NCBI GenBank assembly: GCA_007695195.1
Contig: REEG01000127.1
Location: forward strand, 1-38,908
Reading direction: 5' to 3'
Length of the DNA: 38,908 nucleotides
Origin: Gemmatimonadales bacterium
GTDB lineage: Bacteria; Gemmatimonadota; Gemmatimonadetes; Longimicrobiales; Gaopeijiaceae
This document shows, piece by piece, positions 22,232 to 37,661 of this stretch. Position numbers and translations under genes: made by a program. Position 1 is the stretch's first letter; each line of letters starts with the position of its first letter. Under the pieces are notes generated by a model, which searched no databases, was not told the origin of the DNA, and saw only the letters and a list, made by a program, of their open reading frames with translations.

Positions 22232-23005
22232 ATGTCATCGCCCATCTGGACCTTGTCGACAGCCCTGGTGCTGGCCGGATCGCTCGTGCTCACCTCCGCC
22301 GTCGAGGCGCAGGAGCGCACCCACACGACGGTGCAACCCGGTGCCCCGGGTGAGGCCGGCCGGACGCTGAGCCCGGACGACCTGCGTCCCCCGGAGCGGG
22401 ACAGCTATACCGAGGCGGATGTGCGGTTCATGCAGGACATGATCCACCATCACGAGCAGGCCCTCATCATGTCCCGCATGGTGCCGGAGCGCTCGGCGCG
22501 CCATGACGTCCGGACCCTGGCCGAGAAGATCGAGCGGGCCCAGGGCGATGAGATCTGGGCCATGGTCCGTTGGCTCCAACTCCGGGGCGAGGAGGTCCCG
22601 CCCCTCTCCGTGGAGTTGGACGTTCCGGATCGGGATCATGATCACGGCCATGAGGATCATGGGGCGCACCATCACCACCACCACGATCATCACCACCCTC
22701 ACGGGGATCCCGACGACCACGATCCCCATGCCCACCATCACGGCCATGACCACGAGATGATGGCGGGCATGCTCACCGACGAGGAGTTGGCGCAGCTCGA
22801 GGCGGCGCGGGGCGAAGAGTTCGACCGCCTCTTCCTCGAGTTCATGATCTATCACCATGAGGGAGCGATCCTTATGGTGAATGAACTCTTCGGATCACCG
22901 GGGGGAGCGCGGGGGAGCGACATGTTCGAGTTTGCCACCCACGTGGCCAACGACCAGCAGGACGAGATCGCCCGGATGCGAGCCATGCTCGCCGATGACC
23001 GCTGA
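22232..23005 (+). CDS. exported DUF305 protein with a long His-rich insert
   Basis: A 257-residue protein with signal peptide (to about VEAQ, residue 27). DUF305 proteins are periplasmic ferritin-like four-helix proteins, some linked to copper tolerance. The two DUF305 half-motifs are FMQDMIHHHEQALIMSRM (66-83) and FLEFMIYHHEGAILMVNEL (201-219). Between them, residues 136-174 hold 21 histidines with Asp and Gly, a stretch made for metal binding. The ATG has AGGAGG about ten bases upstream. It is followed 67 bases later by an LVIVD-propeller gene on the same strand. A metal (copper, zinc or nickel) binding role is inferred, not shown. Confidence 0.9.
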   Translation: MSSPIWTLSTALVLAGSLVLTSAVEAQERTHTTVQPGAPGEAGRTLSPDDLRPPERDSYTEADVRFMQDMIHHHEQALIMSRMVPERSARHDVRTLAEKIERAQGDEIWAMVRWLQLRGEEVPPLSVELDVPDRDHDHGHEDHGAHHHHHHDHHHPHGDPDDHDPHAHHHGHDHEMMAGMLTDEELAQLEAARGEEFDRLFLEFMIYHHEGAILMVNELFGSPGGARGSDMFEFATHVANDQQDEIARMRAMLADDR

Positions 23006-23072
23006 GGCCTCGGCAGGCGTGGGAACGCCATCCATCACACCACCAGGACAATCAGACAGGAGAAGAACCGGT

Positions 23073-24902
23073 ATGACGTCGACACTTCGTAGTGGGGTAT
23101 GGGGCCGGGGTCGGCACCTGGGGCTCATGGGCGGCGCCCTGGCGGCGGCGCTGGTCCTGGGCGCTCCGGGCGCGTCGGCCCAGGACTTCACCCTGGGCGG
23201 CGACGATGATCCCCGGGTGGGACTGGGAGCCGGATGGTTCGATGCGGAGGAGGCGGCCTGGAACATGGACCTCCTCCTCAACCTTCCCCGTCCGGACGGC
23301 TTCTATGATCCCGACGATCCCGGCGCGTTCCCCTTCGCCAACACTGACCTGGCCTTCCAGGAGAATCTGGTCTATGTGGGGAATTACCACGGGATCCAGA
23401 TCTACGACATCACCGATCCCACCCGTCCCGTCCTCCGTACCACCATCGTGTGCCCGGGTGGGCAGGGGGACGTCTCGGTCTACGGGAATCTGGTCTTCAT
23501 GTCGGCGCAGGAGCCCCGGGGTCGCATCGACTGCGGCACCCAGGGAACGCTGGACGGCCCGGTGGACCCGGAGCGGTTCCGGGGTGTCCGGATCTTCGAC
23601 GTGAGTGATCTGGACAACCCGGTGCAGGTGGCGGCGGTCCAGACCTGCCGGGGGTCCCACACCCACACCCTGGTAGACGATCTGAACGACCCCAACATGC
23701 TCTACGTCTACAATTCCGGCACCAGCGCGTCCCGGTCCGGTGACGAGATGGCCGGGTGCGTGGATGACCGGGATCCGCTGAACCCCAATACGGCCTACTG
23801 GAGCATCGACGTCATCGAGGTGCCGCTCAGCGCACCTCAGAACGCCCGGCTGGTCTCGTCGCCCCGGATCTTTGCCGATGCCGAGACGGGGCGCATCGAC
23901 GGGCTCTTCCAGGGTGGGGACCACGGAGACGCCACCCAGACCACCCGGCCCACCGACCGGTGCCACGACATCACGGCCTACCCGGAGTTGGGGCTGGCCC
24001 TGGGAGCGTGCTCCGGGAACGGGATCCTGCTGGACATCTCGAACCCCCGGGAGCCGGTGCGGATCGATGAGGTCATCGACCCCAACTTCGCCTTCTGGCA
24101 TTCGGCGACGTTCAATAACGACGGCACCACGGTGATCTTCACCGACGAGTGGGGAGGCGGCACCCAGCCCCGCTGCCGCGCCGAGGACCGGTACGAGTGG
24201 GGCGCCAACACCATCTTCACCCTCTCCAACGGCCGCATGAGCCACGCCAGCTACTTCAAGATGCCGGCGGCCCAGACCAGCACCGAGAACTGTGTGGCCC
24301 ACAACGGCTCGCTGGTGCCGGTGCCGGGGCGCGACATCAAGGTGCAGGCCTGGTACCAGGGCGGGGTGTCCGTCTTCGACTTCACCGACGCCCACAACCC
24401 GCAGGAGATCGCCTTCTTCGACCGGGGCCCCATCGACGCTGAGGAGCTGTACCTGGCCGGCTACTGGGGGACGTACTGGCACAACGGGTACATCTACGGG
24501 TCCGAGATCTCCCGCGGGCTCGACGTCCTGGAACTGACCGCCAGTGAGTGGCTGACCGAGAACGAGCTGGAGGCGGCGCGTCTGGTGCACTTTGAGGAGT
24601 TCAACCCCCAGCACCAGCCGCGCATCGTCTGGCCTGCCCACTTCGCCGTGGCCCGGGCGCTCCATGACCAGTTGGTGCGTCATGAGGGTGTGTCTTCGGC
24701 GCGGGCGTCGGAGATCTCCTCGGAGCTGGCCCGTCTCGAGGCCATGCCGGCGGGGTCGGAGCGGTCCTCTGCGCTGGCCGATCTGGCCATTGCCCTCTGG
24801 GATGACGCCCGGCGGGCAGACCACGGACAGGCCCAGGGTGACGTGGAGCGGATCCGGCGTCTGGCCGGCGCGGTGCTGGACCTGGCCGCTGAGGGGCGCT
24901 GA
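23073..24902 (+). CDS. exported LVIVD-repeat beta-propeller protein
   Basis: A 609-residue protein with signal peptide ending ASAQ (about residue 37) and LVIVD-type blades: GIQIYDITDPTRPVLRTT, GVRIFDVSDLDNPVQVAA, GILLDISNPREPVRIDEV and GVSVFDFTDAHNPQEIAFF. At least eight cysteines are spread over the propeller (CPGG, DCGT, TCRG, GCVD, RCHD, ACSG, RCRA, NCVA), which suits disulfide bonds outside the cytoplasm. The last 100 or so residues are helical (ASEISSELARLEAMPAGSERSSALADLA). AGGAGA lies ten bases before the ATG. It forms a probable two-gene operon with DUF305 and ends at a strong terminator. Related propellers occur at 7569-13095. Function unknown. Confidence 0.85.
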   Translation: MTSTLRSGVWGRGRHLGLMGGALAAALVLGAPGASAQDFTLGGDDDPRVGLGAGWFDAEEAAWNMDLLLNLPRPDGFYDPDDPGAFPFANTDLAFQENLVYVGNYHGIQIYDITDPTRPVLRTTIVCPGGQGDVSVYGNLVFMSAQEPRGRIDCGTQGTLDGPVDPERFRGVRIFDVSDLDNPVQVAAVQTCRGSHTHTLVDDLNDPNMLYVYNSGTSASRSGDEMAGCVDDRDPLNPNTAYWSIDVIEVPLSAPQNARLVSSPRIFADAETGRIDGLFQGGDHGDATQTTRPTDRCHDITAYPELGLALGACSGNGILLDISNPREPVRIDEVIDPNFAFWHSATFNNDGTTVIFTDEWGGGTQPRCRAEDRYEWGANTIFTLSNGRMSHASYFKMPAAQTSTENCVAHNGSLVPVPGRDIKVQAWYQGGVSVFDFTDAHNPQEIAFFDRGPIDAEELYLAGYWGTYWHNGYIYGSEISRGLDVLELTASEWLTENELEAARLVHFEEFNPQHQPRIVWPAHFAVARALHDQLVRHEGVSSARASEISSELARLEAMPAGSERSSALADLAIALWDDARRADHGQAQGDVERIRRLAGAVLDLAAEGR

Positions 24903-25045: not shown

Positions 25046-28000
25046 TTATCCCTGCCCCGGGCGGCGGCGCACCGGAGCGTCCGGACCGCCCCGCTGCCCT
25101 CCTCCCCACCCCTGCCGGAGCTGCGGGGGTACCCGCTCCCACTGCTCGGGCGAGAGCACGCCCTGCACCCGTGTCATGGCCGCCTGCATCTCCTGGCGTC
25201 CTTCCTGAAGTTCGGGCTGCAGTTCCTGGAAGAGGGCTACGGCATCCTCCGGGGCCACTCCGTCGAACCGCTGACCCAACCGTTCGCGGCGGTTGTCCAG
25301 GAGCTCCTGGAGCTCGGACGAGATGACCTGGATCTGCTGGGTCTGCTCGGCGGAGAGGCCCAGGTCGTCTTCCAGCTCCAGGAGGACCTGCACCGGGTTG
25401 GCCAGGGACCGGTCCAGCAGGGTGAGGGGGTTCACTCCCGCCGCCCCCAACATGGCGGCGAGCCCGCCGCCCCGTGCCTGGCCCTCGGCTCCCGGCGCCC
25501 CGCCCGGGCGGCCTTCCTGACCACCCTCCGCCATGGCTGCGGCAATACGCTCCCGGATGGCGGCCATGTCGGCGCCGCCCATTCCCCCCCGGCCGCCGGC
25601 CCAGCCTCCGCCCCCGCCGAAGCCCCGGCTGGTCCCGCCCCGGACCTGACCCAGAGCGACCCGCGCCGAGATGGTGAGCCCGAAGGGCGCGCGGAGCGCA
25701 TTGGCCCCCCGGCGACTCTGGCCAAACGCCTCATTCACCTCGTAGTTGAAGGCCCCGCGATCCACATCGAACCCGGTAACCCGGAGCAGCACGGGCTCGG
25801 CCCGCGCCCCGTCACCCCACCCCCGCATGTTCTCGCTCCCGTTCACCAACTGATCCATTCCGGTGAGGATGTTCACCGCATCCACCGAGATGGTCATGCG
25901 GCGATCGAGGCGGGGAAGCTCCGGTCGGAAGCCGATGCGAGCGCTCAGCGACTGGGTCCACCCATTCCGGCAACTGTTCCGCCCCGCCACTCCACCCATC
26001 TGGTCGGTGAGGCACTCCACGATCCTGGACGGAGCGGTGGCCAGGAGCGTCTCCATCCCCAGCGCCACGCTGGGATCCGAAGCCAGAGTCGGGTCGAAGA
26101 CGAAGGCCCGGTCGTTTCGCAGGCCGTCGCCGTTCATATCCCGGTCTACCAGCGGTGTGAAGGGGGTGCCCGACGACAGCCGTCCGGACACCGACACCTC
26201 GAGGCTGGGACGAAGAGCCCGGGAGACGTTCAGGTTGACGGTGTGGCGCCGGTCGTTGGCCGAGGGTGCCCAGTCGCGCTGGTTGGGGTTTCCGGCGGTG
26301 GGCGCGAAGAGGCTTCCTCCCCCACCCCCGGCGAAGCGCCCGGTCCCACCCCCGGCCGACCCCTCATCCCGGCTCCAGCCCAGGGTGTAGGAGGCCACCA
26401 CCCGCGTGTCGGCGCCCAGGGAGCCAAACGCCTGAGCCGAGACCTGGTGCGACGACGACCGCAGGTCCGTCATGACTTCAAGGACATTGCCGAATTCGGG
26501 ATCCAGCCGCGACGGCACCGACGACACGGCGCCGGTCCGGGTCGAGATGGCCGAGGGGTCGCCGAAGAAGGGTCGCCCTTCGTCGGCCAGGATGAAGAAG
26601 CGCTCCTCGTCCAGGTTCAGATCCTGGGCGCCCCAGAGGCCGAAGCCCCGGGACCAGGTGTAGCGGACGTTGATGGGCAGAAGGTCCCGGACCCGCGTCC
26701 GGTATCCCAGATCGGCCCGGAGGGATGCCGGAAGGCTCGGGGACGTTCCCAGGAGCGTCACATCCGGCGCCCGGGTCGAGAAGGCCGGGGGCAGCCCCGT
26801 TCCACCGTCGGCGCAGAGCTCCGGAACGCCCGACGGATCGCCGGAGAGGGCGCGCCAGTCCGGGATGGGCACCGCGTCCCCGATGCAGATGAGTTGCTGC
26901 TCCGCCGAGGGAAGACCGGTCTGGCGGAAGGCCTGGTTGAACACCTGTACCGGCGCCCGCCCGGCGAAGACACCGATGCCGCCGGAGAGGGTGCGTCCCA
27001 TCCCGGGGATGGGCGGTCCATCGCCGCTCCGGGAGAGCTGGTAGTTGAAGCCGATCCGCGGACTCAGCATGGAGGCCCCGGCCCTCACATCGGTGCGCCG
27101 GCCGAAAGCTTCGTCCACCGCCGGATTGTACTCGGGGCGCGCCTCGAGGCCGGAATAGTCCCAGCGCACGCCCATGGTGAGCTCAAGGGGCTGACTCACC
27201 CGCCACGTATCCCCCACGAAGAACCCGAGGTCGGTACGGGTGGTGGTGAACTCGGTTCCGGTGAGGGCCCGCTGGAACCGGTCCGGCAGGTTCGCCTCGA
27301 AGTCTTCCAACGACGCGTAGCTATACGAACCGAAGAGGTTGGTACTGGACTGGCTCACCGTCTCCTGGCGCTGCACGGCCGCTCCCACCTTGAGCCGGTG
27401 GATCTGCGAGCCCACGGGCTGCAGGAAGGTGAGTTCGTTGGAGAGTTGCAGGTCGGTGGAGCGGAGGTCCGACGGCATCCCCCGATTTCCCCCGAAGGTG
27501 AGGGTCCGGGCCTCCCGGGTTCCGTCGTCCCACTCCGAGGTCACCCGCACCCGTCCCTCGGGCATCTCGGTGAAGGGAAGGGTGGCGTTGGTGGTCCGAC
27601 CCGCCGAGGCGGTGAGTCGGTGGGTCCAGGTGGTGCGGAACCGCGAGTTCAGGGTGACGGCGGCCAGAAGGGAGTTGCGCTCCGTGTCTCCGCCCCGCTC
27701 GGCCAGATCCAGGGGGCTGATCCGTGTGCTGTCCTGGTCCGCCAGGTTCACATTGAAGCGAGAGGTGAGGCTGTGGGACGAGGTGGAGCCCTGCTGGATG
27801 TTCCAGTCCAGTCGGCCCGACAGGCGCAGGTCGTCGGAGACCTGGCTGTAGGGACCGGTCAGGCCCACGGGGGCCAGTGCTCGCTCGCCGCCCAGGATAT
27901 CCAGGAAGCGAAGGATGGAGTCGGGGGCCACCCCGGATCGCTGGGCGGCGAGAGGGTCCGATCCGTCCAGGGCGAAGCGCTGGTTCCGGTTCCGCCCCGC

Positions 28001-28936
28001 CTGGAACGACACGTTGTAGAAGAGCTGGTTCTGGATGAGCGCCGATCCCCACGATCCCCCCAGGTTCTGTCGGGAGAACCCCTGGGTGACCGCCGCCGAG
28101 TTCATCTGGAGGGCGTCGTTGTCGAACCGCCAGGTGAAGGCGCCTCCGGGCCGATTGGAGCCCCGGGCCGAGGTCAGGCTCACGAGCCCGCCGGCGAATC
28201 CGCCCCGGCTCACATCGAAGGTGCTGGTGGTCACCTGGGTCCGCCGGATCCCCTCCTCAGGGACCTGGAGGCCGCCATCCCCCAGGGAGATCCCGTCCAG
28301 CGTCACGTCGTTGAGCAGCTCACTCATGCCCCCCACGGAGAAGCCCATCTGACCGCTGATGGAGTCCAGGTCCGTGGCCACCACCCCCGCCGCAAGAAGC
28401 GCCAGTGTGGTGGGATCCAGATCCGGAAGCGGGAGTCGGTTCAGGAGATCCTGAGAGAGGTCGGTGGTCTGCTCCCCACTCTGGGCCAGCGCCGGCGGGG
28501 TCATGCGCCCCTCCACCTGGAACCCCTCGATCTCGATGGCCTGGGGCTGCATGGTGAGATTCTGGAGGAGGATCTCCTCCTCCCCCTGCCGGACCAGCGT
28601 CACAGCCAGATCGCGCTGGCCGATGAAGCTGACCCGGACCACGTAGGCGCCGCCGCCATCCGGGAAGAGCAGGGTATAGCGCCCGTCCTGGTCCGTGAGG
28701 GCCGAGCGGCTCGTCTCCAGCTCCAGCGAGAAGACCTCCACCCGGGCTCCCGCCAGCGGACTGCCGTCGGCGCGAGTGACCTGCCCGGTGATGAGGTCGG
28801 CGCTCTGGGCCACCAATTGGCTCCCGGGGACGACCAGAGGGGCCGCAAACGCCGCAGAGGCGAGAAGAACCACCGGGAACAGCGCCACGGCCAGGCGTCG
28901 AAGGAAACCAGGGACATGGAGAAAAGAGCCGAGCAT
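25046..28936 (-). CDS. Oar-like TonB-dependent receptor with C-terminal Spy/LTXXQ-like domain
   Basis: A 1296-residue outer-membrane protein. After a signal peptide comes a carboxypeptidase-regulatory-like domain (about 48-125, ITGQVTRADGSPLAGARVEV...DGRYTLLFP). A plug follows (about 155-280, LNDVTLDGISLG, TSTFDVSRGGFAGGLVSLTSARG), then a long beta-barrel to about residue 1097. Unusually, the protein continues with an 88-residue Gly/Ala-rich linker and a helical domain (1186-1296) with LGLSAEQTQQIQVISSELQ and VLSPEQWERV, the two-repeat pattern of Spy/CpxP (LTXXQ) periplasmic proteins. The ATG has only a weak ribosome site. It lies last in the long minus-strand run. The ligand is unknown. The window has no tonB/exbB genes. 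Confidence 0.85.
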   Translation of the reverse strand: MLGSFLHVPGFLRRLAVALFPVVLLASAAFAAPLVVPGSQLVAQSADLITGQVTRADGSPLAGARVEVFSLELETSRSALTDQDGRYTLLFPDGGGAYVVRVSFIGQRDLAVTLVRQGEEEILLQNLTMQPQAIEIEGFQVEGRMTPPALAQSGEQTTDLSQDLLNRLPLPDLDPTTLALLAAGVVATDLDSISGQMGFSVGGMSELLNDVTLDGISLGDGGLQVPEEGIRRTQVTTSTFDVSRGGFAGGLVSLTSARGSNRPGGAFTWRFDNDALQMNSAAVTQGFSRQNLGGSWGSALIQNQLFYNVSFQAGRNRNQRFALDGSDPLAAQRSGVAPDSILRFLDILGGERALAPVGLTGPYSQVSDDLRLSGRLDWNIQQGSTSSHSLTSRFNVNLADQDSTRISPLDLAERGGDTERNSLLAAVTLNSRFRTTWTHRLTASAGRTTNATLPFTEMPEGRVRVTSEWDDGTREARTLTFGGNRGMPSDLRSTDLQLSNELTFLQPVGSQIHRLKVGAAVQRQETVSQSSTNLFGSYSYASLEDFEANLPDRFQRALTGTEFTTTRTDLGFFVGDTWRVSQPLELTMGVRWDYSGLEARPEYNPAVDEAFGRRTDVRAGASMLSPRIGFNYQLSRSGDGPPIPGMGRTLSGGIGVFAGRAPVQVFNQAFRQTGLPSAEQQLICIGDAVPIPDWRALSGDPSGVPELCADGGTGLPPAFSTRAPDVTLLGTSPSLPASLRADLGYRTRVRDLLPINVRYTWSRGFGLWGAQDLNLDEERFFILADEGRPFFGDPSAISTRTGAVSSVPSRLDPEFGNVLEVMTDLRSSSHQVSAQAFGSLGADTRVVASYTLGWSRDEGSAGGGTGRFAGGGGGSLFAPTAGNPNQRDWAPSANDRRHTVNLNVSRALRPSLEVSVSGRLSSGTPFTPLVDRDMNGDGLRNDRAFVFDPTLASDPSVALGMETLLATAPSRIVECLTDQMGGVAGRNSCRNGWTQSLSARIGFRPELPRLDRRMTISVDAVNILTGMDQLVNGSENMRGWGDGARAEPVLLRVTGFDVDRGAFNYEVNEAFGQSRRGANALRAPFGLTISARVALGQVRGGTSRGFGGGGGWAGGRGGMGGADMAAIRERIAAAMAEGGQEGRPGGAPGAEGQARGGGLAAMLGAAGVNPLTLLDRSLANPVQVLLELEDDLGLSAEQTQQIQVISSELQELLDNRRERLGQRFDGVAPEDAVALFQELQPELQEGRQEMQAAMTRVQGVLSPEQWERVPPQLRQGWGGGQRGGPDAPVRRRPGQG

Positions 28937-29076: not shown

Positions 29077-31440
29077 TCAGCCGGGGTTGTACCGCCGAAG
29101 CGCATTTCGCTCGATGTCCTCGTCGGTCCAGAGGGTCGGCGTCATGCGCTCTTCCACGAAATCGTGGAGTTGGTCCTCGTGGTGGGGACTCTCGGGCCGA
29201 TTGCTCTGACCGTAGGCCAGGACGGTATAGGCCCGGGGGTTGGGTCCGAACTCCACGGCCGAGATCCACCCGTCTCCGCCCCGGACCCGCCGCCGTCCGT
29301 CGTCGTCGTCCATGAACCAGATGACCCGGAAACACCCCAGGAGCCCGTCGCACCCGCCCACGGGGAGGTCGAGACGTCCGTGTCGCGCCCGGTGGACCGC
29401 CCCCCACGCCACGTCCACCGATCCCCACCGGTCCCGGGTGGCCGCCGCCGCCTCCCGGAACGCCTCCACGGCCCGGTCCCGGTCGGCCAACCCCTGGGGC
29501 GTGGTCATGGGGGCGTCGGCGGTCCACGGCTCGCGGAAGAGCCGCTCCGCCGGGGCCGGGAAGCCCGCCGACGCCGGCGCTGCGGAGGCGCGTCCGGCCC
29601 CCTCCAGGTACCGCTCCCACCACTCGGTGAAGAGGACGGCGCCCCGAGCCTCCACCGCCACCGTGCGGTCCCACCCCTCCAGCGTCCCCAGCGCCCGATC
29701 CAGGAGCGGGGACCAGTCCTCCCCCCGGGCCCGGGCTTCCCGGAGGCCGGCCAGAAGATCGTCCAGCACCCGGTCGGCCAGGAGCATCCGCTCGCTGGCC
29801 CGGAGCGCCACCACCTCTTCCAGCGAGAAGCGGCGGTCGTTGTGGAGGAGCTCCAGGGAGTGCTGACTCCGAAGCCGCACCCGCGGCTCCTCCGCCTCCG
29901 GAGGGAAGTGGGCGGCGTCCAGGATCTGGTTCAGGTTCGTGTGGTGGAAGGGGTCGTTCTCATTCCGCAGATACCCGCCCGGGGGGTTCAGAAGTTGGGG
30001 CAGGTCATCAAAGGGGAGGAGCTCGTGCCAGGCGTCGTCGGGTCCCCGGGCCAGGTGGGCCACCGAGTCGGCGCCGAAGGGGTGGGGGCGCACCGGATGC
30101 ATGGCGTTCCACACGTAGAAGATGTTTCCGTCGGCATCGGCGTAGGTGAAGTTGGACTGGGTGCGGTCCTGCATCCGCATGGCGTCCAGCCACTGGTCCA
30201 GGTTCTCAGCCCGCATCATGGCCAGGAACTGCCGGCCCAGCCGCGGATTCCCGTCGCCGGCGGTGCGGACCACCAGCACCTCCTCGTCGCCCTGATGCAC
30301 CACGGGACCCAGCGGGCTCTCCAGGATCTCCCGGGTCCGGGTCTCGAGCTGCCGGCCGGTCCACACTTCCACCGTGTAGCTTGCCACCTCCAAGGGCACC
30401 GAGGCCCCGTCCCAGAGGACATGGCCCGGGCGGTCCCGGTCCAGCGTCAGGCGGTACAGATCCGAGAGTTCCGGGTTGTTGTTTGTGGTGGACCAGCCGA
30501 GGCGGGCATTCCACCCGCCGATGACGCTGAACGGGCCGCCGATGCGGAAGTCCCCGTAGAACTCAAGGTCCCCGTCGATGCGGAGATGGGCCTCGTAGTA
30601 GCCGGCCGTCCACGCCAGATGGGGATTGCGCATGAGGATGGCGTGTCCGGAGGTGGTCCGCTCCGGCGCCAGCGCCCAGGTGTTGGAGCCGGCCTCGGCC
30701 CAGACATCGCCCCCTGCATTATCCCAGGCCTCCCGGTCCTCGGTCCTGCCCCCGTAGGCTCCCGTGGACGCCCCACCCCGCGCTACATACCGCTCTCCCA
30801 ACCCCCAGGCCGGGCCAGGAATGTCCCTCGCCAGGATGTGGAAGCCCTGGAAGTCCGGCCGCAGCGCCGGCGGGGCGTCCTCCGGGTTCAGCTCGAGCCA
30901 CCGATTCACCGCCAGGGCGAACCCGGTGTAGATGGCCTGCAGGTCGTGGGGGAGTGTGGGGAAGGCCGCCTCGGCCTGAGCCAGCGTCCGTCGGGCGCGC
31001 ACGTCCGAGGTGATCCGTCCGTCGCCGGCCCCCGGGCCGAAGTACCGTGCCGTCTCGCCCCGAGCCGAGAGGAGAAGCTCCACCACCCGAGGCCCGTAGT
31101 CCTCCATCTGCACCCAGCCAAGGGCGAAGCCGGCGGCGCCGGTGTCCCGGGCCCGGATGTGGGGGATCCCCCGGGTGGTGCGAATGATCTCGGCCCGGGC
31201 CGACAGCGCTTCCCAGGTGGGGTCGAACGCCGGAGCGGCGATCTCGCCCGTCTCCTGCGCCGCCGCCGGCGTCGTCGAAGGGCCCGAGGCGATCAAGAGC
31301 CCCAGGAGGAGGGCCGCGAGTGCGATGCCCAGCCTGGGCATCTGTTCATCACGCCGATCCATCCGCCTCAGCTGATCGCCACGCTCCCGCTGATCTACAC
31401 GACGCTCCCGCTGATTCACACGCCGCCTCTCGGTCATCAT
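29077..31440 (-). CDS. penicillin-acylase-family (S45) N-terminal-nucleophile hydrolase
   Basis: A 787-residue exported hydrolase of the penicillin/AHL acylase family, made as a precursor that cuts itself. The nucleophile is Ser252 in EAGSNTWAL, with the expected Gly before it. The alpha chain before it has IIRTTRGIPHIRA and the typical helical region. The beta chain follows with ILMRNPHL, GWNARLGWSTTNNNPELSDLY, GNIFYVWNAMHP and GGYLRNENDPFHHTN. Substrates in the family include penicillins, acyl-homoserine lactones and other N-acyl amides; specificity cannot be read here. The start overlaps the oxidase stop as ATGA but leaves a 33-residue Arg-rich leader before the real signal peptide (MPRLGIALAALLLGLLIASG). 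ATG at residue 27 (MDRRDEQ), with GAGG close by, is an alternative. Confidence 0.9.
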   Translation of the reverse strand: MMTERRRVNQRERRVDQRERGDQLRRMDRRDEQMPRLGIALAALLLGLLIASGPSTTPAAAQETGEIAAPAFDPTWEALSARAEIIRTTRGIPHIRARDTGAAGFALGWVQMEDYGPRVVELLLSARGETARYFGPGAGDGRITSDVRARRTLAQAEAAFPTLPHDLQAIYTGFALAVNRWLELNPEDAPPALRPDFQGFHILARDIPGPAWGLGERYVARGGASTGAYGGRTEDREAWDNAGGDVWAEAGSNTWALAPERTTSGHAILMRNPHLAWTAGYYEAHLRIDGDLEFYGDFRIGGPFSVIGGWNARLGWSTTNNNPELSDLYRLTLDRDRPGHVLWDGASVPLEVASYTVEVWTGRQLETRTREILESPLGPVVHQGDEEVLVVRTAGDGNPRLGRQFLAMMRAENLDQWLDAMRMQDRTQSNFTYADADGNIFYVWNAMHPVRPHPFGADSVAHLARGPDDAWHELLPFDDLPQLLNPPGGYLRNENDPFHHTNLNQILDAAHFPPEAEEPRVRLRSQHSLELLHNDRRFSLEEVVALRASERMLLADRVLDDLLAGLREARARGEDWSPLLDRALGTLEGWDRTVAVEARGAVLFTEWWERYLEGAGRASAAPASAGFPAPAERLFREPWTADAPMTTPQGLADRDRAVEAFREAAAATRDRWGSVDVAWGAVHRARHGRLDLPVGGCDGLLGCFRVIWFMDDDDGRRRVRGGDGWISAVEFGPNPRAYTVLAYGQSNRPESPHHEDQLHDFVEERMTPTLWTDEDIERNALRRYNPG
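31381..31422. repeat. two tandem 21-bp repeats in the acylase leader
   Basis: ACGCTCCCGCTGAT plus seven bases occurs twice in tandem (31381-31401 and 31402-31422), differing at two positions, with a degenerate third copy downstream toward 31360. It encodes the repeated QRERxxD words before the acylase signal peptide. Confidence 0.7.
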
Positions 31441-32933
31441 TCCACCAGGATGTTGGCCATCATCCCCAGATCCTCGTGTTCCAGGTTGTGGCAGTGAAGG
31501 AGGTACAGGCCCCGGTGGGCCGTGAAGCGAACGGCCACCCGGACGGTCTCGAAGCCCTGCAGCAGAACGGTGTCCTTCCGCCCTGCCTCCCACGGAAACA
31601 CCCGTCCCCGCCCGCCGCTCCGGGAGAGGACCCGGAAGTGGGTGGCGTGGAGGTGCACGGGGTGGGGCAGCCCGCTCTCGTTCACGAACGACCAGATCTC
31701 GGTTTCTCCGAAGGGGACTCGCTCGTCAACCCGCTCCATCTCGAAGTTCCGACCGTTGATGAAGTGGTTCATCTGCCGGGAGTCGAAGCGGAAGGTGCGC
31801 TCCCGGACGGCGTCGGCCGGGTCGGGGAGGGCCACCGGCGGGAGGCTTGTGGGAATGGACGCGCCATCGTCCACTGCTCGGGCCACCCGGAGTTCCAGAA
31901 GTGCCAGGGGATCGCCCTGCAGGTTCTGGCCCCCCATGAACCCCATCCCACCGCTGAGGGAGAAGGGGAGAGAGCGGAGCATGAGCTGTTCTCCCACATC
32001 CCGTCCGCGAAGGTCCACCAGCAGGTCCACCCGCTCCGCCGGAGCCACATCCACGGCGGTGAGGACCTCCGGCGCCGGGAGGAGCCCACCGTCGTTGCCT
32101 ATGAGGTGGAAGGGCGTCCCGTCGGAGAATCCCAGGCGGAAGATCCGGGCGTTGGAGCCGTTCAGGATCCGGAACCGGTAGAGCGCCGTGTCCACCTCCA
32201 GGTAGGGATCCCGAACCCCATTTCCCATGGCCTGGGTTCCCATGTAGCCGGCCATGAGGGCGGGCCCGAAGGGTTGGAAGAAGGGGACCCCCTGAGCGTC
32301 CACTCTCCGGTCCTGGAGGATGAGGGGGATCTCCCGGGGTCCGGAGGGGAGTCCCAGAGCGTCCTCCTCGTCGTCAGTCACCAGGAGGAGGCCGGCGATC
32401 CCCCGGTAGGTGTGCTCGCCGGTGTGATGGTGGGTGTGGGAGTGATACCAGTACGTGCCGGCCCGGTCTTCCACCGGGAAGTCGTAGTGGTACGATCCTC
32501 CGGGGGGGACGGCGAAGCGGGGGTGCCCATCCATGTCGTCGGGGGGCGCCAGGCCGTGCCAGTGGAGGATGAGATCGTGGGGCACCTGGTTCTCCATGAC
32601 CGCCCGGAAGCGCTCGCCGCGTCGGACCCGGATGAGGGGTGAGGGCACCTCTCCATTCAAAGCCCAGACCGGCGTCCTGAGGCCCCCGCCGATGTCCCAC
32701 TCGGTTGGAGCGGCCACGAAGCGGAGGTCACCGGCTCCCACCGCCTCGGGAAGCCGGAGGGGGAAGCGGCTGTCCGCTCCCCCGTTGGCCCCGTTCCCCG
32801 GCGGGGGAATGGGGTCGGCGCCGCTTCCGCACGCCGCCAGGAGGGGTGACGTACTCAGGGATGCGGCCATGGGGGCCACCAGGCCGGCCCGTCCGGTCAG
32901 TCGGATGAAGTCTCGTCGCGATAGTCGCCGCAT
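31437..32933 (-). CDS. Tat-exported multicopper oxidase lipoprotein
   Basis: A 498-residue three-cupredoxin multicopper oxidase. The signal SRRDFIRLTGRAG is a twin-arginine motif and is followed by lipobox LAAC (Cys35), so the folded, copper-loaded protein is probably exported by Tat and lipidated. Copper motifs are complete: HWHG (124-127), YHSHTH (163-168), HPVHLHATHF, and the C-terminal HCHNLEHEDLGMM with the type 1 Cys and Met. The arrangement resembles CotA/bilirubin-oxidase or CueO types. Roles in the class are oxidation of phenols or of Cu(I)/Mn(II)/Fe(II); no methionine-rich CueO insert is obvious. ATG 32933 has AAGGA five bases upstream. The stop overlaps the acylase start. Confidence 0.95.
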   Translation of the reverse strand: MRRLSRRDFIRLTGRAGLVAPMAASLSTSPLLAACGSGADPIPPPGNGANGGADSRFPLRLPEAVGAGDLRFVAAPTEWDIGGGLRTPVWALNGEVPSPLIRVRRGERFRAVMENQVPHDLILHWHGLAPPDDMDGHPRFAVPPGGSYHYDFPVEDRAGTYWYHSHTHHHTGEHTYRGIAGLLLVTDDEEDALGLPSGPREIPLILQDRRVDAQGVPFFQPFGPALMAGYMGTQAMGNGVRDPYLEVDTALYRFRILNGSNARIFRLGFSDGTPFHLIGNDGGLLPAPEVLTAVDVAPAERVDLLVDLRGRDVGEQLMLRSLPFSLSGGMGFMGGQNLQGDPLALLELRVARAVDDGASIPTSLPPVALPDPADAVRERTFRFDSRQMNHFINGRNFEMERVDERVPFGETEIWSFVNESGLPHPVHLHATHFRVLSRSGGRGRVFPWEAGRKDTVLLQGFETVRVAVRFTAHRGLYLLHCHNLEHEDLGMMANILVE

Positions 32934-32982: not shown

Positions 32983-33828
32983 TCACTGAGGCGAGCCTCG
33001 CATCAGTTCAGAGAGCTCTTCCCGGTCCGTATTGCCCCGCTCCCGCCGGGCCGTCACACGCCCTCGGGCCAGGACCACGAACCGGTCGCCCACCTGCAGG
33101 GCGTGTTCCGGGTTGTGGGTGATGAGGATGACGGCGGTGCCCCGGTCCCGGGCCCGGATCACCCGGTCCAGCACCAGGGCCGACTGGCGCACGCCGAGGG
33201 CGGCGGTGGGCTCGTCCAGGATCAGGACCCGGGCGCCCTGGTGAAGGGCCCGGGCGATGGCCAGGCTCTGGCGCTCGCCACCGGAGAGGACACCCACCGG
33301 TTCATCCGGGTCCCGCACTGTGATCCCCATTCGGGCGAGCTCCGTTGTGGCCTCGTCCCGGGCTCGTGTCCGGTCGAGCCGACGGAGTGGTCCCCAGCCC
33401 CGGGCGGGCTCGGCCCCAAGTACGAAGTTCCGCCAGATGCTCATCAAGGGTACGATGCCGAGATTCTGGTGGACGGTTGCAATGCCCAGGCGCCGGGCGG
33501 CCCGGGGAGAGGGGATCTCCACGGATCGGCCGTCCAGGAGGAGGGTGCCGGAGGATGGTCTGTGCACCCCGGAGAGAATCCGGATCAGGGTGGACTTCCC
33601 GGCGCCGTTGTCCCCCAGGACGCAGGTCACCGCCCCCTCGTACACCTCCAGATCCACCCCGTCCAGCGCCACCACCGGTCCGAACCGGCGGGAGAGCTGA
33701 CGTGCCTCCAGGACGAGGTGGGCGCCGGCGCCGGCGGCTCCCTCCGGCCCTCGCGCCGTGCCGCCCTGTTCCCCGCTGATCGCGGCGTCATCCGGTGCCT
33801 CCGACCCCTGGGGCTGCTCCGCCGTCAT
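32983..33828 (-). CDS. sugar-type ABC transporter ATP-binding protein
   Basis: A 281-residue single-domain ATPase (half the size of RbsA-like two-domain ATPases, like FrcA). After a 38-residue disordered acidic N-terminus come Walker A GDNGAGKST (72-80), Q-loop HQNLG, signature LSGGERQSLAIARAL, Walker B VLILDEPTAALG and H-loop ITHN. It energises the permease encoded upstream for import of a ribose-, fructose- or nucleoside-like solute. Its ATG overlaps the permease stop (ATGA). The open frame extends upstream into the permease gene, but this start matches the overlap pattern of the operon. Confidence 0.93.
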   Translation of the reverse strand: MTAEQPQGSEAPDDAAISGEQGGTARGPEGAAGAGAHLVLEARQLSRRFGPVVALDGVDLEVYEGAVTCVLGDNGAGKSTLIRILSGVHRPSSGTLLLDGRSVEIPSPRAARRLGIATVHQNLGIVPLMSIWRNFVLGAEPARGWGPLRRLDRTRARDEATTELARMGITVRDPDEPVGVLSGGERQSLAIARALHQGARVLILDEPTAALGVRQSALVLDRVIRARDRGTAVILITHNPEHALQVGDRFVVLARGRVTARRERGNTDREELSELMRGSPQ

Positions 33829-34802
33829 CCCGCCCCCGCAAGACGCCGCCGCGCCACCTGGTTGAAGAGAACGGCGGCCAGGAGCATGAAGCCCAGGAAG
33901 ACCTGGAACCAGTCGGCGTCCACCCCGGTGATCACCAGGCCCTGTTGCACCATACCGAAGATGACGGCCCCGAAGACGGCGCCCAGCACCGAGCCGTAGC
34001 CGCCGGTGAGGAGCGTCCCGCCGATGACCACGGCGATGATGGCCCGGAACTCGAAGAGCTGTCCCCGGAGCGCGTCGGCGCCGCCGAACTGTACGGCCTG
34101 GATCACCGCCACGAGACACGCCGCCGCCGCCGTGACGGCGAAGAGGGTGATCCGGACCCGGTCCACCGGCACCCCGCTGTTCCTGGCTGCCTCCCGGTCC
34201 CCGCCGGTGGCCAGGATCCAGTTGCCGAAGACGGTGCGGCGCAGCACCCACATCCCCACCAGGGCGCACCCCAGCCACCACAGGACCGCAGCCCGCACCG
34301 AGCCGACCGGGGTGGAGGCCAGGAGGAGCCGGGCGCTCTCGAATCCCTCCACCTCCCGGATCCCCCCGAGCTGGGTCCGACCCGTGGCGGCCCGGCTTCC
34401 CCCTACCGCCAGCCCTCGGAGGATGAAGAGGGTGGCCAGCGTCACGATGAAGGAAGGGAGGCCGGTGCGGACCACCAGGAGACCGTTGGCCACGCCCACG
34501 GCCAGGGCGAAGACGAAGGTGGCGGCCATGGCCGGCCAGAGGGACCATCCCACCGGTCCCACCATGACCATGAGGAGCATCCCTGCCGCGCCGATGAGTG
34601 AACCCACCGAGAGGTCGAACTCCCCGGCGATCATGAGGAGGGCCACCGCCACTGCCAGGATCCCCAGCGGAGCCGAGGCGTTCAGCCAGGCGGCCGTGGC
34701 TTCGGGAGAGGTGAAGGCGCCGCCGGCCACCCCGGCGAAGACTCCCCAGACCAGCACCGCACCCCCCACGGCGGCCAACTCCGGCCGGCGCAGAAGCCTC
34801 AC
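33825..34802 (-). CDS. sugar-type ABC transporter permease (RbsC-like)
   Basis: A 325-residue inner-membrane protein of the branched-chain/ribose-type permease family (BPD_transp_2), with nine or ten hydrophobic segments. Family words are [18 protein letters not shown] (about 56-73), [19 protein letters not shown] and [33 protein letters not shown] near the C-terminus. It starts at GTG, overlapping the stop of the binding-protein gene (GTGA), and is followed by the ATPase with an ATGA overlap. Confidence 0.93.
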
Positions 34803-35932
34803 CGCACGCCCTGCCGGGTGAATTCCACCACCGCCCGGGCCTCCTCGGGGGTCACGAAGCCGGGTCCGGTGCGCACCACCTCGCCACCCCCGGGCATGGT
34901 GCCCGTCTCCAGGAACTGCACCAGGAAGACCACGGGGAGGTAGCCCTGGAGGTACTGCTGCTGGTCGATGGCGAAGGCCAGGTGCCCCTCTTCCACTGCG
35001 GCCAGGACCTCGGGGGAGAGGTCGAAGGTAGCCGCCAGCACCCGGTCGTGGGCGCCGGTCTCGTCCAGCGCCTGTAGCATGGGCTCGGCGGCGATGGTGG
35101 CCAGGGTCAGGAGTCCGTCGACCCCTGCGTCACCCCGGAGTTCGGCGGCGATGCGCTGACGGGTGCCCTCGGGGTCGGCCAGTTCCACTGCCAGGATCCG
35201 GGTTCGGGCCCCTGCCTCCGTGAGGGCGTCGGTGAAGCCGCGGCAGCGGAGGTCCAGCGCCAGGTTGCCCACCTCCTGGTTCACGCACACCGCGCTCTGG
35301 ACCCCGGCGGCCGCCATCCGCTCCCCGGCCCCGAAGCCGGCTTCATACTCGGTCTGACCTACGTGGGCCCGCACCCCAAGGGCGGCGGCTCGCTCGGCGC
35401 CGGAGTTGATGGAGATGACGGGGATGCCGGCAGCCACGGCCCGGCGCACCGAACCTTCCAGGGCGTCGGGGTCGGGGAGGGAGACGATAAGGCCGTCCGG
35501 GCGGGAGGCCACAGCCGCGTCCATGAGGTCGCTCATCTCCACCATGTCGAAGGTGGACGGGGCCTGGTACTCGACCCGGACGCCCAGGTCACGCCCGGCG
35601 GCCCGAAGGCCGTTGGAGACCACGGACCAGAAGGGGTCGGCGGGCTGGCCGTGGGTCACGGCCACAATGCGGACGCCGGCGCGCTCTTCCATCAGGGCCT
35701 CCCGACCGTCGTCGCAGCCCGCCAGGGCACCTACGGCCAGAATCCCAACCACCGCAGAGTGGAGGCCTCGGCGGCCGAGACGGAGCCGGCGAAAGGGCCC
35801 GGTGCCGACCAGCGCCGACCTCGCTCCCCTCCGGTCTTCCGGCTCTCTCCGGTCTGCTCCGTTTTCCTTCTTCCCGAATCCACTCACGCCCAACTCTCTC
35901 ACACCCAACTCTCTCACACCCAGTTCTCTCAC
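34799..35932 (-). CDS. sugar-type ABC transporter substrate-binding lipoprotein
   Basis: A periplasmic-binding-protein-like (Peripla_BP_4) lipoprotein with lipobox ALAGC (Cys73). The fold is seen in [70 protein letters not shown] and [37 protein letters not shown], typical of ribose/simple-sugar receptors. The 72-residue leader is far too long for a signal. It starts in a 15-bp tandem repeat that offers in-frame GTG codons at 35932, 35917, 35902 and 35887. GTG 35932 has GGGAG eight bases upstream. The real ligand is unknown. The gene begins 46 bases after the symporter stop. Confidence 0.88.
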
Positions 35933-35936
35933 ACCC
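35892..35936. repeat. three tandem 15-bp repeats carrying start codons
   Basis: On the minus strand GGGTGTGAGAGArYT is repeated three times (15 bp, 35892-35936) with degenerate flanks. Each copy holds an in-frame GTG preceded by an AGAGAG-like ribosome site, encoding VRELG repeats at the start of the binding-protein gene. Confidence 0.85.
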
Positions 35937-35978
35937 AGTTCTCCCGGTCCGGACCGCTCCCGTCCGAACGGAGCAGCC

Positions 35979-37661
35979 TCAGTGATCGATGGCGGCGCCG
36001 CTGCCCCGGGGATACCGGATCCGTTGCACCAGCTCCTGGATATCCGGGGGCGGCGGCGGTGTGAGGCGCGACACCACGAAGGTGAGGACGAAGCTCAGGA
36101 GCATTCCCACCGTGCCGATTCCCTGCGGCGAGATCCCGAAGAACCAGGGGTCCCAACCGATGCCGATCCCAGGAGCCACCGTGATGATATAGAAGGCGGT
36201 GAAGGTGATCCCCGCCAGCATTCCCGTGATGGCGCCCTCCCGCGTCGTCCGAGGATCAAAGATGCCCAGGACGATGGCGGGAAAGAAGGAGGCGGCGGCA
36301 AGGCCGAAGGCGAAGGCCACCACCTCGCCCACAAAGGCGGGTGGGAACACCCCCAGGATCCCGGCCAGCGCCACGGCGCCCAACATGGCGCCCCTTGCCA
36401 CCAGGAGCTCTTCGCGCTCCGAGGCGTTGGGGCGGACGTAGGTCTTGAAGATGTCGTGGGAAAGCGACGAAGCAATGACCAGGAGGAGTCCCGACGCAGT
36501 GGAGAGGGCGGCGGCGAGACCCCCTGCCACCACGATGGCGATGACCCAGTCCGGGAGGTTGGCGATTTCCGGGTTCGCCAGCACCATGATGTCCGGGTCC
36601 ACGTAGAGTTCGTTGGCGCTGGCTGGATCCCGCATGGCGCCGGGGGCGAAGTCGATGATGCCGTCGGCGTTCTTGTCCTGGAACTCCAGGAGCCCGGTGT
36701 CTTCCCAGGTCCGGAACCACTCCGGACGATCCTCGTAGCGCTCTCCCACCACTGTGTCCAGGAGGTTGAACTTGGCGAAGACCGCCACCGCCGGTGCGGT
36801 GGTGTAGAGAAGGGCGATGAAGAAGAGGGCGAAGACGCCGGTCCAGCGGGCGCCCCGGACCGTGCGGGTGGTATAGAAGCGGATGATGACGTGGGGAAGG
36901 CCCGCTGTTCCGCACATGAGCGCCATGGTGATGAGCATGACGTCAAGGCGAGACAGGTTGGTAAAGGGCGAGGTGTACGCCCCGAAGCCCAGGTCCTCCA
37001 TGACCAGGTTCAGCTGGGTCGCCACCTGAGGGAAGGCCACCTGGGGAAGGGCGCCTCCTGTGAGTTCCAGACTGATCCCCACCGCCGGGATGATGAAGGC
37101 GGTGATGAGGACCGCGTACTGCGCCACCTGGGTGTAGGTGATCCCCTTCATTCCGCCCAGAACGGCGTAGAAGGCCACCATGGTCATTCCCGCTACCACC
37201 CCCCACCCGATGGGGATCTCCAGGAAGCGGGAGAAGACGATACCGGCTCCTCGCATCTGCCCCGCCACGTAGGTGAACGAGACCGCCACGGCGCACACGG
37301 CAGCCACCACCCGGGCGGTGGACGAGTAGTACCGGTCGCCGATGAAGGCCGGGACGGTGAAGCGCCCGAACTTTCTCAGGTATGGCGCCAGGAGGACGGC
37401 CAGGAGCACGTATCCCCCGGTCCACCCCAGGAGGTACATGGCCCCATCAAAGCCCAGAAAGGCGATGAGCCCGGACATGGAGATGAACGAGGCGGCGCTC
37501 ATCCAGTCGCCGGCGGTGGCCATTCCGTTGAAGAAGGGCGGCACCCCCTGGCCCGCCACGTAGAATCCCTTGGTGGTGGACACCCGGGCCCAGAGGGCGA
37601 TACCGACGTACAGCCCGAAGGTGAGGAAGACCGCCAGAAGGATCCAGATCTGAAGTGTCAT
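35979..37661 (-). CDS. sodium:solute symporter, VC_2705/ActP-like subfamily
   Basis: A 560-residue SSS-family inner-membrane symporter with about thirteen membrane segments. Family regions include [37 protein letters not shown] (about 28-64), [20 protein letters not shown] and [18 protein letters not shown]. It resembles the acetate/pyruvate-type VC_2705 subfamily, which works with a DUF4212 small subunit; that subunit is encoded seven bases upstream. Between two membrane segments there is a soluble stretch with an EF-hand-like loop DKNADGIID (329-337). Substrate is probably a small carboxylate, by family inference. Confidence 0.92.

Follow-up and report, generated by a model that had tools for sequence, protein, structure and literature searches.

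TonB-dependent receptors are known to signal through an N-terminal STN domain, and the LTXXQ family of proteins is large and mostly uncharacterised. In the FoxA/FoxR system the anti-sigma factor has an STN-like domain, which is contacted by the N-terminal STN-type domain of the receptor (PMC11637429). Periplasmic metal sensing by CnrX acts through the anti-sigma factor CnrY and results in release of the ECF factor CnrH (PMC4598750, PMC7689651). The gene described here lies in a stretch of 38,908 nucleotides (the window) from a Gemmatimonadales genome, and its product is predicted to be a TonB-dependent-receptor-type protein with an LTXXQ-superfamily domain fused at its C-terminus. No report of this architecture was found in the open-access literature, coverage of which was incomplete.

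The fusion gene and its parts

The gene is one open frame of 1296 codons, with no internal stop between 28936 and 25046 on the minus strand. An earlier note on this DNA had described a receptor and a Spy-type tail within a single protein, and this is borne out by the intact frame, the Pfam LTXXQ match, and the profile-profile comparison. Residues A43-Q44 of the probable signal peptide are invariant in 16 family members. The barrel is matched above cut-off by PF25183 OMP_b-brl_4 (101.5 bits, residues 367-992) and by PF00593 TonB_dep_Rec_b-barrel (37.9 bits, residues 365-635). The Plug domain PF07715 is matched by 4 of 16 family members in Pfam, the window protein itself not being among these, and an STN signalling domain was sought with Pfam in 16 family members and gave no match.

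A Gly/Ala-rich linker is found across the family, varying in length. The earlier note was right as to the presence and composition of this linker, yet its length of 88 residues does not stand; conservation and the structural model place the start of the domain at about residue 1170 and the linker is therefore of about 72 residues. The paired words it had picked out are present as LSAEQTQQI from residue 1194 and LSPEQWERV from residue 1261. In the established topology of these receptors the C-terminus of the barrel is periplasmic, by which the tail domain of the window receptor should lie in the periplasm. Coordinates of these features, and of the gene cassettes that adjoin fused receptors in some relatives, are given in Table 1.

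Table 1. Features of the receptor-LTXXQ fusion gene (window coordinates) and receptor-linked cassettes in relatives (locus coordinates).
Feature	Location	Strand	Basis or gene order
Receptor-LTXXQ fusion gene, 1296 aa	25046..28936	minus	Intact ORF; Pfam architecture; fused orthologues
Probable signal peptide, residues 1-44	28805..28936	minus	Hydrophobic N-terminus; inferred cleavage site
CarboxypepD_reg domain, residues 49-119	28580..28792	minus	PF13620, 48.2 bits, E 1.4e-12
Plug region, about residues 150-260	28157..28489	minus	Inferred boundaries
Outer-membrane beta barrel, about residues 365-1097	25646..27844	minus	PF25183, PF00593
Gly/Ala-rich linker, about residues 1098-1170	25427..25645	minus	Sequence
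LTXXQ (Spy/CpxP-superfamily) helical domain, about residues 1171-1276	25109..25426	minus	PF07813, AlphaFold2, hhalign
First LTxxQ-type motif LSAEQ, residues 1194-1198	25343..25357	minus	L and Q conserved in at least 90% of 71 tails
Second LTxxQ-type motif LSPEQ, residues 1261-1265, then family-specific Trp 1266	25142..25156	minus	L, T, Q and W columns conserved in at least 90% of 71 tails
Cassette, lineage L162/L108 (and L241)	L162:1482-6806; L108:9407-14859		ECF > anti-sigma > CnrX-like > receptor
Cassette, lineage L093/L094	L093:7888-13066; L094:7052-13065		Receptor > ECF > anti-sigma > CnrX-like
Cassette, lineage L240	L240:4172-9729		Receptor > ECF > anti-sigma > CnrX-like
Cassette, lineage L117/L105	L117:4086-10210; L105:9901-16159		Receptor divergent from free LTXXQ > ECF > anti-sigma > CnrX-like

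Identity of the tail domain

The LTXXQ family PF07813 matches residues 1188-1265. Its curated cut-off is 24.3 bits; the full protein scores 20.5 bits, the 199-aa tail 22.8 bits and the domain taken alone 25.1 bits. The relationship to LTXXQ/Spy proteins proposed in the earlier note is thus recovered by family search, and 59 of 71 homologous tails scanned singly also match PF07813. When the tail profile was compared by hhalign with one built from 13 free LTXXQ proteins of Gemmatimonadota together with Spy and CpxP of E. coli, homology was detected at 97.5% probability (E 6.6e-12), spanning the domain from end to end over 88 columns that include both motifs. Against Spy and CpxP only, the probability was 17%, this score being weak because the template contained just two sequences; the link from tail to Spy therefore passes through intermediates. 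Searching PDB sequences with the tail profile returned designed repeat proteins and apolipoproteins with weak E-values, which reflect helical composition and not homology. Within the tails, N-P precedes the first motif, invariantly so in the nine-row profile A1, and P trails the W of the second motif.

AlphaFold2 modelling on 71 aligned tails predicts an all-helical domain (pLDDT 87.7, pTM 0.79), in the order short helices, motif 1, long helix, long helix, motif 2 and short helix. An uncalibrated Foldseek comparison of this single-tail model with the PDB gave no match below E 0.001. The weak matches include NccX (E 1.5) and CnrX (E above 3), and neither Spy nor CpxP is among the best 50 matches listed. 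Two tandem tail domains are found in some relatives; the tandem model has a pTM of 0.46, making its domain packing unreliable, and Foldseek found nothing significant with it. Taken from family, profile and motif matches, the tail is best assigned to the LTXXQ (Spy/CpxP) superfamily.

The window genome also encodes a free LTXXQ/Metal_resist protein (L001:1273-1848), the C-terminus of which is His-rich whereas the receptor tail is His-free.

Conservation and origin of the fusion

A whole-protein search of the genomes of the family found orthologues at 42–64% identity in several genera, and those that are complete to the C-terminus have the tail. Tail profile A1 matched 237 of 395 sampled Gemmatimonadota genomes, with the best matches mostly in frames of 1200–1500 aa. 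An independent scan of public genomes used patterns from the receptor rather than from the tail. Of the 80 loci kept, nearly all were from the Gemmatimonadota, which are soil bacteria. Contig ends truncate four of these loci and a fifth is interrupted by an in-frame stop, leaving 75 that could be assessed; the tail is present in 70 of these and absent in five. Separate LTXXQ genes were sought in the five tail-less loci and none was found. The survey of receptor homologues that the earlier note had proposed therefore finds the tail to be usual in them.

In a FastTree phylogeny of the barrel only, in which the details of branching are provisional, all fused receptors form one clade with a support of 100, separate from 23 tail-less paralogues. 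Presence of the tail needs five state changes on this tree, which a single gain followed by about four losses would explain. The fusion is an old, conserved trait of one Gemmatimonadota receptor family, with a single origin; this phylum is the one that was surveyed, and independent fusions may occur in others. Tail dN/dS is 0.06–0.35 in ten close pairs. Selection therefore keeps the sequence of the tail, which is under purifying selection.

One fused receptor (L172, L240:4172-7891) has an in-frame stop within the barrel, with the tail resuming downstream in the same frame.

Genes adjoining the fused receptors

In the window, the receptor gene is accompanied by genes for a penicillin-acylase family protein, a multicopper oxidase, a sugar ABC transporter and a DUF305 protein. 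The penicillin-acylase family gene (29077-31593), the product of which weakly matches the PvdQ acylase, shares the strand of the receptor gene and lies immediately upstream of it. Convergent to the receptor gene (22232-24902) are genes for the His-rich DUF305 protein and then a choice-of-anchor B / LVIVD protein, while 32983-37661 encodes a sugar-type ABC transporter, whose binding protein is of the rhizopine type, along with a sodium/solute symporter of the VC_2705 family. This neighbourhood is not common to the closest orthologues, the exception being a DUF305-like gene about 5 kb downstream of the receptor in L126. A link to copper through the multicopper oxidase and the His-rich DUF305 protein was dropped because, this one gene aside, the closest orthologues do not have that neighbourhood. 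No partner gene is common to all of the roughly 99 loci compared, and the neighbours differ between lineages. A gene identified by eye as a PhoB-type response regulator divergently adjoins the fused receptor in L092, L098, L137 and L138. In L092 it is followed by genes, likewise identified by eye, for a histidine kinase, a PstS-like and a PstC-like protein, which suggests phosphate control there.

In four lineages, the fused receptor adjoins genes for an ECF sigma factor, a putative anti-sigma factor that is small and has a hydrophobic segment, and a CnrX-like LTXXQ protein anchored in the membrane. The ends of the cassette and receptor genes overlap in L162. The sigma factors are confirmed by Pfam. 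The putative anti-sigma factors have no match to an anti-sigma family in Pfam and are assigned by position, size and the hydrophobic segment. Sub-threshold LTXXQ or Metal_resist matches are present in three of four anchored proteins scanned from receptor-linked loci, and in a wider anchored set 16 of 17 match LTXXQ. The tail profile is homologous to the profile of the CnrX-like anchored proteins (hhalign, 96.6%, E 5.1e-10).

Most fused receptors have no adjoining cassette, and 17 cassettes not adjacent to receptors have no receptor of either kind nearby. Profile A8 was made from 17 anchored proteins that are not adjacent to receptors, chosen against circularity, and has about two matches per genome in 53 genomes. 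At this rate, about 105 fused receptors should produce approximately 0.3 adjacencies within 3 kb, against four lineages in which one was seen (Poisson about 3e-4), these being approximate tallies made by eye for a pattern first spotted at the very loci later tested. On these approximate counts, the cassettes adjoin fused receptors more often than chance.

Possible roles of the tail

The favoured role for the tail, and the most likely of those considered although it is held tentatively, is that of a periplasmic coupling or signalling module that links the receptor to LTXXQ-type envelope signalling. The barrel C-terminus would exit into the periplasm bearing the flexible Gly-rich tether and the LTXXQ helical domain. 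There the tail would have a second LTXXQ protein as its pairing partner, typically one that is anchored in the membrane as the CnrX-like subunit of an ECF sigma/anti-sigma complex. The state of the receptor, whether it has bound its ligand or has been assembled into the membrane, would thus be reported to the inner membrane. Like-with-like LTXXQ pairing across the periplasm would be the simplest reading of a receptor family that has no STN domain, has a C-terminal LTXXQ domain, and has a linked inner-membrane LTXXQ protein. Both His and Cys are lacking from the periplasmic part of the CnrX-like protein in the receptor-linked cassettes of L162, L093, L094 and L108 (for the last, the receptor-adjacent copy), so that a protein partner is plausible as its input. 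No CnrX-like protein was matched in the window genome, and no cassette adjoins the window receptor gene. For this receptor we therefore infer the mechanism, as we do the physical pairing of tail and CnrX-like protein, the direction of the signal, and its relevance here.

It is possible, if doubtful, that this is a second architecture for cell-surface signalling, in which a C-terminal LTXXQ domain talks like-with-like to an ECF sigma/anti-sigma pair via a membrane-anchored LTXXQ partner, much as FoxA and FoxR pair by their STN-like domains, though at the other end of the receptor and with a different fold. If so, the C-terminal LTXXQ domain, found phylum-wide and sometimes co-operonic with ECF, anti-sigma and CnrX-like genes, would be an independently evolved signalling route, and one member of the LTXXQ family would gain a specific candidate role. 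The alternative to a new signalling route is a receptor with its own chaperone.

As a tethered chaperone, a Spy-like tail would sit where the barrel opens to the periplasm and would shield the receptor while it assembles, its plug while TonB remodels it, or a protein or peptide being imported. Membership of the LTXXQ superfamily is in keeping with this, the long flexible linker fits a tether, and the tandem copies in several relatives could form an intramolecular pair like the Spy homodimer. The arrangement of the two domains is, however, of low confidence in the tandem model, Spy and CpxP are missing from the Foldseek matches listed, and tail-less paralogues of the same phylum evidently assemble unaided. 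This function is somewhat unlikely.

The LTXXQ domains may instead pair receptors with one another or with free periplasmic LTXXQ proteins, serving to cluster or anchor them with no signalling. CnrX is a dimer in its solved structure (PMC7689651), tails with one and with two domains occur, and free LTXXQ genes adjoin fused receptors in, for example, L094 (where one has the same NP motif), L105, L117 and L123. Linkage to sigma and anti-sigma genes points past simple clustering, and dimerisation or docking as the whole function is considered unlikely.

That the tail senses metal stress or buffers metal, in the manner of ZraP or CnrX, is highly improbable. The earlier note had raised metal sensing on the likeness to Spy-type proteins; Metal_resist (PF13801) weakly matches 5 of 71 tails in Pfam, and the multicopper oxidase and His-rich DUF305 genes are near the window receptor. 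However, the mean content of the tails is 0.43% for His and 0.01% for Cys, and the window tail has neither residue, which argues against metal sensing, and the neighbours vary across relatives.

That the tail belongs to a separate gene, brought into frame by a sequencing error such as a frameshift, or is a meaningless extension, has next to no likelihood and is dismissed, since, although a broken copy with a stop inside the barrel does exist, the tail is in frame in orthologues across the phylum (the 70 assessable relatives above), the fused receptors form one clade, and tail dN/dS is well below 1.

Comparison with known systems

Having the signalling module as the favoured reading, the fused family can be set beside the systems that it resembles. 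CarboxypepD_reg, a putative plug-like region and a barrel are shared with the Oar-like / CarboxypepD_reg receptors (OMP_b-brl_4, PF25183). The tail-less paralogues among these stop at the last barrel strand, whereas the fused family continues. As in Spy and CpxP (PF07813), two LTxxQ-type motifs bound two long helices, here predicted ones; there is profile homology between them, and the tail is probably periplasmic too. Unlike these free, soluble periplasmic proteins, the receptor tail is fused in one ORF to an outer-membrane receptor, and the receptor tails add a conserved N-P before motif 1 and a W after motif 2.

CnrX and NccX belong to the same LTXXQ/Metal_resist superfamily as the tail, and CnrX-like genes are present in the cassettes adjoining some fused receptors. 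The receptor tail differs in being tethered to the outer membrane and in having no His or Cys metal ligands. In contrast to CnrX/CnrY/CnrH, the cassette is linked to fused receptors in some lineages only and is absent from the window genome. The TonB-dependent transducers FecA, FoxA and PupB are likewise receptors with an extra periplasmic domain, and ECF and anti-sigma genes are near the fused receptors in some genomes. Homotypic pairing with an inner-membrane partner, as in these transducers, may also occur in the fused family. The candidate signalling domain of the fused family is, however, a C-terminal helical LTXXQ domain, where that of the transducers is an N-terminal STN domain.
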